From Deltaproteobacteria bacterium (GTDB lineage: Bacteria > Desulfobacterota > Binatia > UBA9968), in NCBI GenBank assembly GCA_009692615.1, contig SHYW01000052.1, forward strand, positions 1 through 32,910: a stretch of DNA of 32,910 nucleotides, written 5' to 3'. Positions 28,029 through 32,593 of this stretch are shown here, piece by piece. The first letter of the stretch is position 1. The number at the start of each line of letters is the position of its first letter. The notes under the pieces were generated by a model. The model worked only from the letters and a program-made list of their open reading frames with translations. It was not told where the DNA came from and searched no databases. The position numbers and the translations under genes were made by a program.

Positions 28029-29960
28029 TCAATTCGGCGCTAATTCTCGGCGCCGGTACTGGAGCGCGGCGGCGACGGCAAATAGGCCGATGCCGATCAT
28101 ATCCTCGAGCAAACTCGGATAGACCAGCACCAACCCCGCGGCGATCAGCAGCAATCTTTCGATTTTTGTCGTTGCCACTTTCAACCAACCGGTAAAGCCC
28201 GCCGCCAATGCGACCAAGCCGATGGCGGCGGTGGTCGTGGTCCAGATAATATTTTCCCAATTACCTTTGAGCAGCAGGCCGACGCCGTCGGGATGGAGGG
28301 TGAACATGAACGGCACTAAGAACGCCGGCAGAGTGTATTTCCACGCCATCATCGTCGTCTTATACGGATTGCCTCCCGTGATCGCCGCGGCGGCGAAGGG
28401 CGCCAGCGCGGTGGGCGGCGAGACTTCGGAGAGCACGGCGTAATAAAAAATAAACATGTGGGCGGCGTATTCCGGAATGCCCAGCTTGATCATCGCCGGC
28501 GCGGTGATGACCGCGGCGATGATGTAAGAGGCCGTGACCGGCACGGCGAGGCCCAAAACCCACAGCGCCAACGCGGTGTAGAGCACGGTGAGAAATAAAT
28601 TGTTGCCGGCGAGGGAGAGAATGATCAGGGAAAATTTCAAGCCGAGACCGGTAAGCGTGACCACGCCGACGATGATGCCGGCGGTCGCGCAGGTCGACGC
28701 CACCGACAAGACATCCAACGTGCCTTTCTCCAACATCTGCCACAAGCGCGTCGGCGAAAGCGCGGTGTCGCGGCGCAAATAACTCAATGCCACGCTGACC
28801 AAGCAGGCATAGGCAACCGACAAGATCGCCGTATAGCCCCACATCATGAAGCCAACGATGGCGAACAACGAGATGAAATGAAAACCGTATTTGCGCGTCA
28901 AGCTCCAGCAGTTGTCGCCCTCGACCTGGATCGGCTTGGCGCCGAATTTTCGCGCGTCGAGCTCGACCATGGCGAAGATCGACCAGTAGTAAAGCAGCGT
29001 CGGGATCGTCGCCATGGCGAGCACTTCGAGATAGGACACTTTTAAAAACTCAGCGATCAAAAATGCCGCGGCGCCGAGCACCGGCGGCGAGATGATCGCG
29101 CCGATGCCGCCGGCGGCGAGCAAACCGCCGGCGGATTCTTTATCGTAGCCGGCTTTGGCGAGCAGCGGCCAGGCCACCGAGCTTAGGGTTACCGTAGTGG
29201 CGACGCCGGAACCCGACGGACCGCCGAGTAGAAATGACGCCAGCGTCACCGTTCGTCCCGCTGCCGCCGGTTTGCCGCCGGTGGCGGCCAATGAAAAATT
29301 TACGTAGAACTCGCCGGCTTTGGAAAATTCCAAAACCGCACCGTAGATGGTAAACAAAATAATAAATGTCGCGGCGACGTCCAGCGGCACGCCGAAAATT
29401 CCTTCGAGCGTGACATACATGTGGCCGACCAAGCGATCGAGTTGATAACCTTGATGGGTCCAGGGCGGCGGCAAGTAGGCGCCGAAACTGGCGTAGGCGA
29501 GAAAACTCAAGGCGACCAGCGGGAGTATCCAGCCAGTTGTGCGCCGCGTCGCTTCGAGCACCAGCAGCATGGTCAGAGCGCCGAAAATTTGATCCCGCGG
29601 CGTCGGCAATGCGGCGCGATAGATGAACTCTTCAAAATCCCACAGCGGATAGCCCACCGCGGCGATGCTGGCGGCGACCAACAGCCAATCGTGCCATGGC
29701 ACGCCGCCATGTTGACCCTTGGCGCGCGCCGGATAAATCAGAAACGACAGCACCAGCGCCAGGCCGAGAAATACCAAGCGTAGTACCTGGGCGGTGACCG
29801 ACACCCAGGCCCAGTAAAGAAATAGTAAAGAGGTGAGGACGGCGAGAGTCGAAGTGATTTTACCGGCGACGCCTTTGAGTTGGCGGCGCGGCCCTTCTTC
29901 TTCCTGAACGAATTGCTGGGTCGCTTCGAGACGGGCGGGATCGATGCTGTCTTCACTCAT
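28029..29960 (-). CDS. TRAP transporter fused permease (DctQ-DctM type, TAXI-associated)
   Basis: A 643-residue, very hydrophobic inner-membrane protein: a small N-terminal set of helices (DctQ-like) fused to the large DctM-type permease, as usual for TAXI-type TRAP systems. Typical segments are GVPLDVAATFIILFTIYGAVL, LLGGPSGSGVATTVTLSSV, AGGIGAIISPPVLGAAAF and the second-half YAVLSEVSPPTALAPFAAAAI. TRAP systems use an ion gradient to import organic acids delivered by a periplasmic receptor. The ATG at 29960 overlaps the DUF1850 stop by 8 nt (ATGAGTGA); the frame extends upstream but only through the DUF1850 gene. Receptor and accessory genes lie directly upstream. Confidence 0.94.
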   Translation of the reverse strand: MSEDSIDPARLEATQQFVQEEEGPRRQLKGVAGKITSTLAVLTSLLFLYWAWVSVTAQVLRLVFLGLALVLSFLIYPARAKGQHGGVPWHDWLLVAASIAAVGYPLWDFEEFIYRAALPTPRDQIFGALTMLLVLEATRRTTGWILPLVALSFLAYASFGAYLPPPWTHQGYQLDRLVGHMYVTLEGIFGVPLDVAATFIILFTIYGAVLEFSKAGEFYVNFSLAATGGKPAAAGRTVTLASFLLGGPSGSGVATTVTLSSVAWPLLAKAGYDKESAGGLLAAGGIGAIISPPVLGAAAFLIAEFLKVSYLEVLAMATIPTLLYYWSIFAMVELDARKFGAKPIQVEGDNCWSLTRKYGFHFISLFAIVGFMMWGYTAILSVAYACLVSVALSYLRRDTALSPTRLWQMLEKGTLDVLSVASTCATAGIIVGVVTLTGLGLKFSLIILSLAGNNLFLTVLYTALALWVLGLAVPVTASYIIAAVITAPAMIKLGIPEYAAHMFIFYYAVLSEVSPPTALAPFAAAAITGGNPYKTTMMAWKYTLPAFLVPFMFTLHPDGVGLLLKGNWENIIWTTTTAAIGLVALAAGFTGWLKVATTKIERLLLIAAGLVLVYPSLLEDMIGIGLFAVAAALQYRRRELAPN

Positions 29961-30591
29961 AGCGGTGATCGTTGCATGGGCCGACGGTAATTCGATACGC
30001 GCGGTCGGGCGGTAGATTGAATGTTTCGCCTTCGACGCCCAGAGACATCGCCGCATCGGCGCTCAGGTTCAATTTCAACTCCGGCAAAAATGCCGGCGCC
30101 GGCGTGACGATCCATGCGCCGTTGTCACGCGTCGCCGCTTCATGGCCGTAAAAATCCACCAAGCGCGCTTCGCTGTAGCGCAGTTGGTTGAGTTCGAAAC
30201 CGTTGGCGCGAATTAAAAAGACTTCTTCGACTTGGCTGGCGTAGATCGAGTGGCGAAAACTTACCTGCAAGATGCTGCCGACGCGCATTGGTATTTTACG
30301 ATGGAAGTCTTGGTCATTCGTCACTTCGATGCACAATGGCTGGGCTTGGGTCAGCTTCCCCCTTTGAAAAAGGGGGGCCGAGGGGGATTTTCTTTGGCCG
30401 AGTTGCGCAGTTGCCGCTGGAGAAAATCCCCCCGTTCCGCCCTTTTTCAAAGGGGGGGCAAGAGATGCAAAGAATTCGCTGGGGTCGCCGCCATTGTCGG
30501 GCCCGGCGCTTACTGGATTGATGATCGTAACTACGGCTGCGCAGACCAAACCGGTTATGAGACTGGGTAAATTATTTTTCAACGAAATCAT
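29953..30591 (-). CDS. DUF1850 protein with an in-frame palindromic-repeat insertion
   Basis: A 212-residue exported protein. DUF1850 proteins commonly accompany TAXI-TRAP permeases; their role is unknown. A signal peptide is visible (hydrophobic stretch about 9-27, likely cleavage at PVSA-G near 29). The DUF1850 core starts at LCIEV (about 86) and includes SFRHSIYASQVEEVFLI and LRYSEARLVDFYG. Between them, residues about 44-79 (PPLKKGGTGGFSP ... KSPSAPLFQRGK) are translated from a palindromic DNA repeat, not from the family's own sequence. The insertion is in frame and lies between the signal peptide and the fold, where it should be tolerated. The start overlaps the TAXI stop by 4 nt. Confidence 0.85.
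   Translation of the reverse strand: MISLKNNLPSLITGLVCAAVVTIINPVSAGPDNGGDPSEFFASLAPPLKKGGTGGFSPAATAQLGQRKSPSAPLFQRGKLTQAQPLCIEVTNDQDFHRKIPMRVGSILQVSFRHSIYASQVEEVFLIRANGFELNQLRYSEARLVDFYGHEAATRDNGAWIVTPAPAFLPELKLNLSADAAMSLGVEGETFNLPPDRAYRITVGPCNDHRYE
30355..30462. repeat. Palindromic (MITE/REP-like) element inside the DUF1850 gene
   Basis: About 108 bp. The left arm 30355-30394 (CCCCCTTTGAAAAAGGGG then GAGGGGGATTTTCT) and the right arm 30419-30462 are near-perfect inverted copies around a roughly 24-bp centre. The length is a multiple of three, so the host frame survives. Similar CCCCTTTGAAAAAGGGG palindromes are, to my knowledge, scattered through many unrelated bacterial genomes. The exact ends and any target-site duplication are not clear. 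Confidence 0.8.
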
Positions 30592-31574
30592 TTCGCCGCC
30601 GTCGGCACGCGCACGCCTTTTTCTTTGTAGTAGCGCAGCGCGCCGGGATGAAACGGGATCGGCGAGCCGACCACGGCATTTTTCAAATTAATTTCGACGG
30701 CGGCTTTGTGCACGGCAACCAGCTCGGATGTGTTTTCGAGAAACAATTTGGTGATTTGGTAGGCGAGGTTCTCGTCTAGTTTCTCGTTGGCGATGAGCAA
30801 GTTGGTCGCCGCTGCCACCGGGATATCTTCGTCGATGCCTTTGTAAGTGCCCTTGGGAATGTTGCTGACGTAATAGAGCGGGCCGTACTTGCCGACCATT
30901 TTCGCCACCGCGTCGCCGTGCGGGATCATGGTGATTTTAATTCCCGGCGTGGCGGCGAGGTCGAGCACCGCGGCGGTGGGCAAGCCGCCGTCCCAGAAAA
31001 AGGCGTCGATCTTGCGGTCTTTCAGTGCGCCCGCCGATTCGCCGGCGCCGAGACGCTCTTGGCTTCTCAAATCTTTAGGCGTCAGGCCGTAGGCTTCGAG
31101 CACGCGCAGCCCTTTCACTTCCACGCCTGAGCCAGGCGCGCCGGTGGAAACCCGCTTGCCCTTGAGATCGGCGACGCTCTTGATGCCGCCGCCGTCGACG
31201 GCGACGATGTGCATGTAATTGCCGTAGAGCGCCATGAGCGCGCGGATGTTGGCTTTGTCGGGCAGCCCTTTGAGCAGGCCGCTGAAGCCATCCCAAGCGG
31301 TGTCGGGAAGAGAAAATGCTAAGCCGACGCGATTGCCGTGCAGCAGCTTCACATTATCCACCGACGCGGTGGTGACTTCCGCGGTCGCTTCGGTGTTGGG
31401 AATCATTTTCGAAATCAGCGCCGCCATGCCGCCGCCGAGCGGATAATAAACCCCGCCGGTACCGCCGGTGGCGATGGACAAGCGGGTTTTGACCTGCGCG
31501 CCGGCTATTCGAGGAAGCGGCATGAGCGCGACGATGATCGCGCTTATAAAAAATAAAAAATGTTTCCTAGTCAT
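30588..31574 (-). CDS. TAXI-family TRAP transporter solute receptor
   Basis: A 328-residue periplasmic binding protein that captures the substrate for the TRAP permease. The signal peptide is MTRKHFLFFISAIIVALMPLPRIAGA, with cleavage before QVKT. The mature start LSIATGGTGGVYYPLGGGMA is the TAXI hallmark, followed by VTTASVDNVKLL, DLKGKRVSTGAPGSG and FFWDGGLPTAAVLDL. The frame is open to a GTG at 31628 that overlaps the preceding stop by 4 nt (GTGA), which would add 18 residues; ATG 31574 gives the cleaner signal peptide. TAXI ligands are mostly carboxylates or amino acids such as glutamate; the substrate here cannot be read. Confidence 0.92.
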   Translation of the reverse strand: MTRKHFLFFISAIIVALMPLPRIAGAQVKTRLSIATGGTGGVYYPLGGGMAALISKMIPNTEATAEVTTASVDNVKLLHGNRVGLAFSLPDTAWDGFSGLLKGLPDKANIRALMALYGNYMHIVAVDGGGIKSVADLKGKRVSTGAPGSGVEVKGLRVLEAYGLTPKDLRSQERLGAGESAGALKDRKIDAFFWDGGLPTAAVLDLAATPGIKITMIPHGDAVAKMVGKYGPLYYVSNIPKGTYKGIDEDIPVAAATNLLIANEKLDENLAYQITKLFLENTSELVAVHKAAVEINLKNAVVGSPIPFHPGALRYYKEKGVRVPTAAK

Positions 31575-31624
31575 TTGGCTTCTGCTCTTTCTGAGTGGCG
31601 CGATTCGGGAGTTGCGAACCGGCG

Positions 31625-32593
31625 TCACATCTTGCGCATGGCAATTACGTAGTAGGGAACAAAGCCGGTGCCGGCGTCGACTTCCAAGCGCTCTTCAAAG
31701 CCGTCGGCGGTGGGCTGGAGAATTTTTCGCGCCCGTTGCCCCTGGCTGGCGTGGCCTGGCGGCAAGTCGGCGAATTCTAGTTTGCTTTGATTGCGCGCGA
31801 TGGCGTATTCGCGCACGGTGCCGCCGTCTGTGTAGGCGTGAGCGGTGATCGTTCCCGCCGGTTCGGCGCCGACGATGACCAAGGCTTTGTGTACATCCTT
31901 GCGGCCGTCGGCCAACGGATAGGTGGCGTTCATGCGCAGAGAGATAAAACGGCCACCGGCTTCGAAACTGCCGACGACTTCTTTTTGAAAGACGTAATCG
32001 GTCATGGCGTACTTGCCCTCGCCGCGAAAATGGCCGACGAGAAATTCCAACGGCTGCACATGGGCGCTCGGTTTGCCGTGATCGTGCACCGGATCGAAAC
32101 GAAACTTTTCCGCCGCGCCGCTGTCGACGAGCAAGGTGCCGGCTTGCGCCGCCGCTTTCGCGTATTGAATCACGGCGCGCCAAGCGTCTTCGTTGGCGAC
32201 TTCGGCGAACATTTCTTGCCGGTCGCCGATGCGCAGCGACAGCACCGGAGCCTGTTTGCAAGGGCCTTGGCAGCCGGTCTTTGAAATCGGCGCGCCGATA
32301 TCGGCGCTCAGCCGCGCGAGTTCGCGATCCGACATGTCGAAGTCGATTTTGTTGTAACAGGGCTGGGCGGAGCAGAGAAAAAGACAGTTGGAAGCCTCGA
32401 AGTAAGCTGCTTTGGCGCGATCAAGCGCGCCCAACAGCTCGTCATCGGATGGATCGAGACGCCGAAGATGCAGAAAGTGACGCAGTTGGGCGAGCCCAGC
32501 TTCGGTCCAGGCGCCCTCCGTCTTAACCACGAATCCCGAGGCGTGGATCGCGAGTTCGGATTCTGTTTGTAGCTCTGCCGTCGTTCGTCGCAC
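31625..32593 (-). CDS. Fusion of thioredoxin-like [2Fe-2S] ferredoxin and DUF1579-like beta-barrel
   Basis: A 322-residue protein, apparently cytoplasmic (no signal peptide). Residues about 65-150 look like a thioredoxin-fold [2Fe-2S] ferredoxin: C74-x4-C79, then C108-x3-C112 in TGCQGPCKQAPVL, with ELARLSADIG between; C70 is an extra cysteine. Residues about 180-322 start with LEFLVGHFRGEGKY and continue as a beta-strand-rich domain resembling DUF1579 or the lipocalin/nitrobindin-like barrels, ending FVPYYVIAMRKM. The first 60 residues are not recognised. GTG at 32593 is supported by AGGGGAG 6 nt upstream. First gene of the TAXI-TRAP run, so it may sense or process the imported compound; that is inference. 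Confidence 0.75.
   Translation of the reverse strand: MRRTTAELQTESELAIHASGFVVKTEGAWTEAGLAQLRHFLHLRRLDPSDDELLGALDRAKAAYFEASNCLFLCSAQPCYNKIDFDMSDRELARLSADIGAPISKTGCQGPCKQAPVLSLRIGDRQEMFAEVANEDAWRAVIQYAKAAAQAGTLLVDSGAAEKFRFDPVHDHGKPSAHVQPLEFLVGHFRGEGKYAMTDYVFQKEVVGSFEAGGRFISLRMNATYPLADGRKDVHKALVIVGAEPAGTITAHAYTDGGTVREYAIARNQSKLEFADLPPGHASQGQRARKILQPTADGFEERLEVDAGTGFVPYYVIAMRKM

Follow-up and report, generated by a model that had tools for sequence, protein, structure and literature searches.

How does a near-palindrome of about a hundred base pairs come to lie in frame within a protein gene, and does the protein or the transcript make use of it? The question is raised by a DUF1850 gene in the window, by which we mean the whole analysed stretch of 32,910 nucleotides, a contig of a Deltaproteobacteria bacterium whose draft genome (G000) comprises 5.05 Mb in 186 contigs.

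The element and its host gene

The features relevant to the discussion are the following:
28029..30056, minus strand: DctM-type permease ORF; the likely start is near 29960, as judged from orthologue frames
29953..30591, minus strand: DUF1850 ORF of 212 aa, whose frame stays open across the element
30013..30267, minus strand: DUF1850 domain match (Pfam), residues 109-193
30355..30459, minus strand: palindromic repeat element of 105 bp (35 codons, APPLKKGGTGGFSPAATAQLGQRKSPSAPLFQRGK), with the A-arm followed by the B'-arm in gene sense
30358..30393: second arm of the inverted repeat in gene sense
30421..30456: first arm of the inverted repeat in gene sense
30460..30504, minus strand: 15 codons (GPDNGGDPSEFFASL), likewise missing in orthologues and without a second significant match elsewhere in the genome
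30505..30591, minus strand: putative signal peptide by hydropathy, residues 1-29 (hydrophobic at about 7-25, ending in VSA)
30588..31628, minus strand: TAXI-type receptor (NMT1_3), overlapping the DUF1850 start by 4 bp

The arms of the element are 36 nt each and 86% complementary, with a spacer of 27 nt. The initial annotation had placed an inverted repeat of about 108 bp between the signal peptide and the mature fold, adding about 36 residues without breaking the frame. The inverted repeat and its position are confirmed and the ORF is indeed open throughout, but the unit that aligns with the rest of the family (30355-30459) is 105 bp long and corresponds to 35 codons, residues 45-79. The very strong hairpin expected in the transcript is also predicted here, with a minimum free energy of −76.8 kcal/mol for 30330-30480 compared to a shuffle mean of −57.9 (z = −4.7), none of 200 shuffles being as good.

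The host gene matches the DUF1850 family (Pfam PF08905) with 24.2 bits, slightly below the curated cut-off of 27, and the assignment is supported by the operon partners NMT1_3 and DctM and by the orthologue alignments, whose invariant residues are retained in the window domain. In an AlphaFold2 model calculated from a shallow alignment of 10 sequences, the beta fold starts at about residue 81 and the mean pLDDT of ten-residue blocks is 80-96 up to residue 210, compared to at most 57 for residues 1-80. As a separate observation, the contig end (32660-32910) is a repeat with TGTCAGGG motifs that has at least 40 matches (40 of 173 candidates were scored), mostly located at the ends of contigs; the assembly seems to have broken here at the terminus of an insertion sequence.

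Among the 117 genomes searched, DUF1850 orthologues were found in G002, G010, G001, G023, G020 and G008, the remaining matches being the element itself, while none was found in G003 and G004. After the signal peptide, none of these six has residues that align with the insert of the window, and the insert is also missing from the aligned named relatives of other groups (L174-L182). In the orthologues aligned, the segment is thus not conserved protein sequence, and none of them carries the element there. The alignment does not, however, give the clean gap of 36 residues that had been envisaged. The gap is about 50 residues (about 31-81) and exceeds the element, as some 15 more upstream codons are also specific to this lineage. 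For the 81 bases that precede the element in gene sense, the genome contains no second significant copy, the next best match having an E of 0.19.

It is important to note what occupies the corresponding junction in related genomes. In G010, G023, G020 and G008, where this element alone was sought, no copy of it is present. The same-genus genomes in which the DUF1850 locus was found, namely the own genome, G001 and G002, each have some repeat at the junction. That of G001 is a diverged pair that faces outward and precedes the signal peptide, recognised visually on the basis of two half-sites (3 mismatches) and weak by the covariance model described below (12.1 bits, E 0.52), while that of G002 is an unrelated repeat with at least 57 matches in its genome, itself included. 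Both may lie in untranslated spacer. A caution given in PMC3733652, that repeats at protein N-termini may stay untranslated because translation starts downstream, fits these two cases; it fits the window less, since a signal-like segment lies upstream of the element there.

The comparison also brought up a second abundant repeat family (L107:1309-1450 in G002), which translates as NTKDTKHVLSKVEGSTK...RVLRDLRDLRG. Among the six genomes searched for it, it has at least 48-69 matches in G002, G000, G001, G004 and G010 and at least 5 in G003, and one copy is located at the start of the G002 DUF1850 ORF.

A modular repeat family and its genomic setting

The element is one of many in its own genome. 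At least 96 blastn matches were obtained (40 of 87 candidates scored, both strands of the palindrome counted), and the exact half-site CCCTTTGAAAAAGGG occurs 54 times, compared to 0 for the reversed pattern. Merged, these correspond to at least 51 places, so the further copies that the initial annotation led one to look for are indeed there. Full-length copies, 25 in number, align to one consensus consisting of two half units CCCCCTTTGAAAAAGGGGGnnnnnGGGGGATTT facing inward, and outward-facing pairs are also present (L069, L072, L077, L086 and L087). Conservation of the flanks reaches about GGGGGAAGTT on the right side and is weak on the left. A covariance model (R1) built from 25 copies, the window copy among them, scores the latter at 88 bits on the minus strand.

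Several signatures were looked for in these copies. A target-site duplication was not found, the summed flank identity being 88 compared to a mean of 82.5 (maximum 106) for shuffled pairs. None of the 25 copies has a GTAG or CTAC tag, and there is no consistent CGTC tag either (near 3 of 25 copies, compared to 2 of 25 at a control distance; for GACG 3 compared to 1). RNAalifold finds covariation in only one of 25 pairs, and the alignment thus gives no sign of a selected RNA structure; no Rfam family is above threshold, the best match scoring 19.3 bits where the gathering score is 83. Of the 150 copy-frames (25 copies, six frames), 60 are free of stops, which indicates that in-frame survival of an insertion is not improbable.

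The unit is present in 18 of 117 genomes and, across the phylum, in 37 of 395 genomes and 22 of 246 genera, the own one included in each case. The reversed controls gave zero, and in the larger survey the positive genomes contain between 1 and 43 exact units. Of 15 chosen genomes, 13 have matches to the covariance model and two (G009, G053) have none, and the plasmid and named phage collections contain no DNA match to the element. Such a patchy distribution fits a mobile or horizontally moved repeat.

A RAYT enzyme was considered as the partner that moves it. Y1_Tnp genes are present in all 13 genomes searched, but no copy of the element was seen in the 30 loci read (both of G000, all three of G001 and both of G095 included), only chance-like matches with 4/17 mismatches, and these loci therefore do not point to the mover. 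As to a parent element, the two genes scanned between neighbouring copies (L091, L068) encode solute-binding proteins and not transposases.

Of the 53 other copies tabulated in G000, 52 are outside the genes called by codon score and one touches a gene edge. The orientation of the neighbouring genes was determined at 51 sites, with 36 being co-directional, 10 convergent and 5 divergent; for the remaining gaps of 60 bp or more in these loci, the corresponding numbers are 59, 10 and 22. Divergent gaps are thus depleted of copies (5 of 51 versus 22 of 91, p = 0.045), while the excesses at convergent gaps (p = 0.21) and at 3' ends (p = 0.065) are not significant. Among 116 chromosomal clusters from G000, G001, G095, G073, G060 and others (for G001, G095 and the others a subset of the copies), two are judged to be inside a gene, one in G060 by the codon test and the window copy by its domain and signal-like segment. 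At L204, L213, L216, L220 and L266 an open frame leads from the element into a gene whose product has a Pfam match. N-terminal extensions are possible at these sites, and two of 116 is accordingly a lower bound.

We now turn to the suggestion that the hairpin sets the expression ratio of the receptor and the permease. Flanking genes of at least 300 nt were scanned (51 of 53 distinct ones on the 3' side and 42 of 44 on the 5' side, the other two being already in the 3' set), together with 59 of 84 control genes, as the remaining 25 are truncated at the ends of their loci. NMT1 genes are not enriched beside the copies, with 7 of 51 on the 3' side and 7 of 42 on the 5' side compared to 10 of 59 controls. 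There is no terminator-like site at the element, and translation through the ORF would tend to unfold the hairpin. With no receptor-gene enrichment, no such site and a copy that probably lies within a translated ORF, the expression-ratio reading is weak; an effect of this kind is possible, and the analysis does not support it. The control value also illustrates that NMT1-type solute-binding proteins are numerous in G000 (L061-L105).

In-frame copies in helicase and phage genes

In G060, which belongs to the same class, the element is found at residues 666-696 of a 1240-codon Lhr-type helicase ORF, between DEAD_assoc and WH3_Lhr, with Pfam helicase and Lhr domains on either side. The Lhr region is matched in 24 of 38 genomes, most orthologue matches breaking at about query residues 96-157, and the G118 protein aligns across the site with a different linker. 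In the Lhr alignment, from which 6 of 19 rows were left out because they were on the wrong strand, the linker is short in 11 of the 13 usable rows, and in the two closest (L273, L274) it is longer but does not contain the element.

The unit also occurs in 28 viral stretches. In four IMG/VR contigs (L324-L327), the gene of the terminase large subunit (phrog_38, 2.6e-131) contains an outward-facing pair in frame. Of 137 related loci the best 80 were compared; at this site 75 of them have 8 residues, the four with the repeat have 41, and one has 24. The terminase gene of L328, whose DNA shows 97% identity to that of the first repeat carrier over the aligned positions, has a different palindrome with GTAG/CTAC ends, in frame and at the very codon position that the repeat occupies in the other four. 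This palindrome folds at −51.4 kcal/mol. Its half has no exact match in other viral contigs, and a looser form is found in 3, itself included, so that we treat it as a candidate repeat family. Both terminase-contig frames lack a Pfam family, and of the 290 named phage records matched by the terminase none exceeds 80% identity.

In L296, L297, L302 and L315, a Mu-like portal gene contains a single in-frame unit close to the C-terminus, although the L302 contig is frameshifted within this gene. The alignment of 20 of 52 portal loci (L404-L410 included, with L406 frameshifted) shows that L409 and L410 are without 30 nt at the unit site; they retain AAATCCCC, as would be expected after a precise deletion of the hairpin. 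Among plasmids, nothing closely matches the portal gene. One unit also occurs towards the end of a tape-measure ORF (L300), at codons 919-927 of 988, possibly another case of in-frame residence. A half-site in a DUF6502 gene (L142) was discarded, as it looks like chance, and among the 20 open frames scanned those of L244, L241, L256, L139, L225, L250 and L261 have no Pfam family.

Origin of the segment and its meaning

Three types of known repeats are relevant for comparison. The RPEs are palindromes of about 100-150 bp that form a stem-loop and are tolerated in frame in conserved protein genes (PMC2229807, PMC10969869), one of these two reviews counting 19 reading frames and the other 44 insertions; a CGTC tag is reported for the R. 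conorii repeats in PMC3733652. The window element is similar in size (105 bp) and in its stable stem-loop, but its family is rarely in frame (two of 116 clusters, a lower bound), is without a consistent CGTC tag (3 of 25), and has hosts other than Rickettsia, with units on phage contigs too. As described in PMC3733652, GTAG REPs and BIMEs are palindromic units, single or in inverted pairs, located mainly between co-directional or convergent genes and also in repair and helicase genes, intragenic cases being mentioned for both GTAG and CGTC REPs. The window family shares with these the modularity, the inverted pairs in both orientations and the mainly intergenic location with tandem or convergent over divergent gaps, the likeness in gene orientation being weak in view of the p values of 0.045 for the divergent depletion and 0.21 for the convergent excess. 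It differs in having no GTAG (0 of 25), in its longer and GC-rich unit, and in that no copies flanking a RAYT gene were found at the 30 Y1_Tnp loci. Finally, ERIC and Correia-type MITEs are short, multi-copy elements with terminal inverted repeats and open frames that fuse to genes, and intragenic ERIC-type cases are known (PMC2229807). The window element is like them in all of these properties, and unlike them in that its family has no target-site duplication and no parent insertion sequence in the few places examined.

Taken together, we consider it very probable that the window segment belongs to a multi-copy, modular family of REP/BIME-like palindromic repeats and was inserted into the N-terminal linker of the DUF1850 gene. 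In the mechanism that we propose, the repeat, made of two inverted units of the half CCCCCTTTGAAAAAGGGGGnnnnnGGGGGATTT, would insert into this linker, and as its 105 bp have no stop in the reading frame it would be read through. The translated element is predicted to form a disordered Gly/Pro/Lys-rich spacer between the signal peptide and the beta domain, and an insertion of suitable length could survive as coding sequence where the linker tolerates it. Our best guess for the spread is a hairpin-based mobilisation in trans of the recognised unit by a RAYT/HUH-like enzyme, which is suggested by the lack of a visible target-site duplication and by the pairing of units both inward and outward. 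The DUF1850 protein with the insert is probably made and exported, and the insert is probably close to neutral.

A different possibility is that the hairpin is under selection at the junction between the receptor and the DUF1850-permease genes and tunes mRNA decay or translation, as known for the malE-malF REP. The very strong predicted fold, the presence of a repeat at this junction in all three congeners and the scarcity of copies between divergent genes would be in line with such a role. These three repeats are, however, unlike in family, position and strength, the other four junctions are without the element, and the window copy is within the ORF. Since, moreover, solute-binding-protein genes are not enriched beside the copies, no terminator-like site is present at the element, and the convergent and 3'-end excesses are not significant, we find regulation of this kind unlikely.

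The insertion could also have disrupted the gene, such that export of the DUF1850 product is lost or its translation starts past the element and leaves out the signal peptide. The codon-score caller does place the start downstream of the element, and the window copy does not pass the codon test, the upstream segment scoring near zero (−0.07) and the downstream one +0.18. Yet the frame is intact over 35 plus about 15 extra codons, the hydrophobic signal-like residues 7-25 are still upstream in frame, the domain residues are conserved and the overlap with the receptor gene is retained. Between the element and the domain there are only the few residues LTQAQPL, with no signal-like segment. A disrupted gene is thus, in our judgement, quite improbable. 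An assembly or binning artefact can be imagined in a 186-contig draft in which many contigs end in a repeat, but the window copy is unique (the next best has 81% identity among the matches listed) and about 2.4 kb inside the contig, and both of its flanks come from one orthologous operon, which makes this explanation very improbable indeed.

With the inserted repeat as the preferred reading, the class to which the window segment belongs is already known from RPEs and intragenic REPs. The untagged family, the residence in phage genes and the exchange at one site look new within the searches made. In open full texts, judged by title, neither the motif nor the peptide of the repeat was found in work on bacterial repeats, and there was no paper on DUF1850 and none on terminase together with REP. 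Tentatively, one can speculate that codon positions in tolerant linkers and operon junctions are landing sites at which palindromic families swap with the frame kept, phages being both targets and carriers. This idea comes from the terminase site, with the repeat in four contigs and a GTAG-ended palindrome in the 97%-identical one, from the three repeat arrangements in three congeners at the DUF1850 junction, and from the presence or absence of 30 nt in frame in the portal genes.

Protein-coding palindromes are best known from Rickettsia, and here we have an untagged family that is patchy across a phylum, occurs on phage contigs too and is in frame in a transporter accessory gene, a helicase gene and phage packaging genes. 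Short hairpin repeats may thus have added segments to proteins on repeated occasions. That repeats are a general supply of protein linkers, and that phages ferry them between genomes, are both ideas that can now be tested, and the near-identical terminase genes with two palindromes at one site provide a natural experiment on how such repeats enter and leave a gene.
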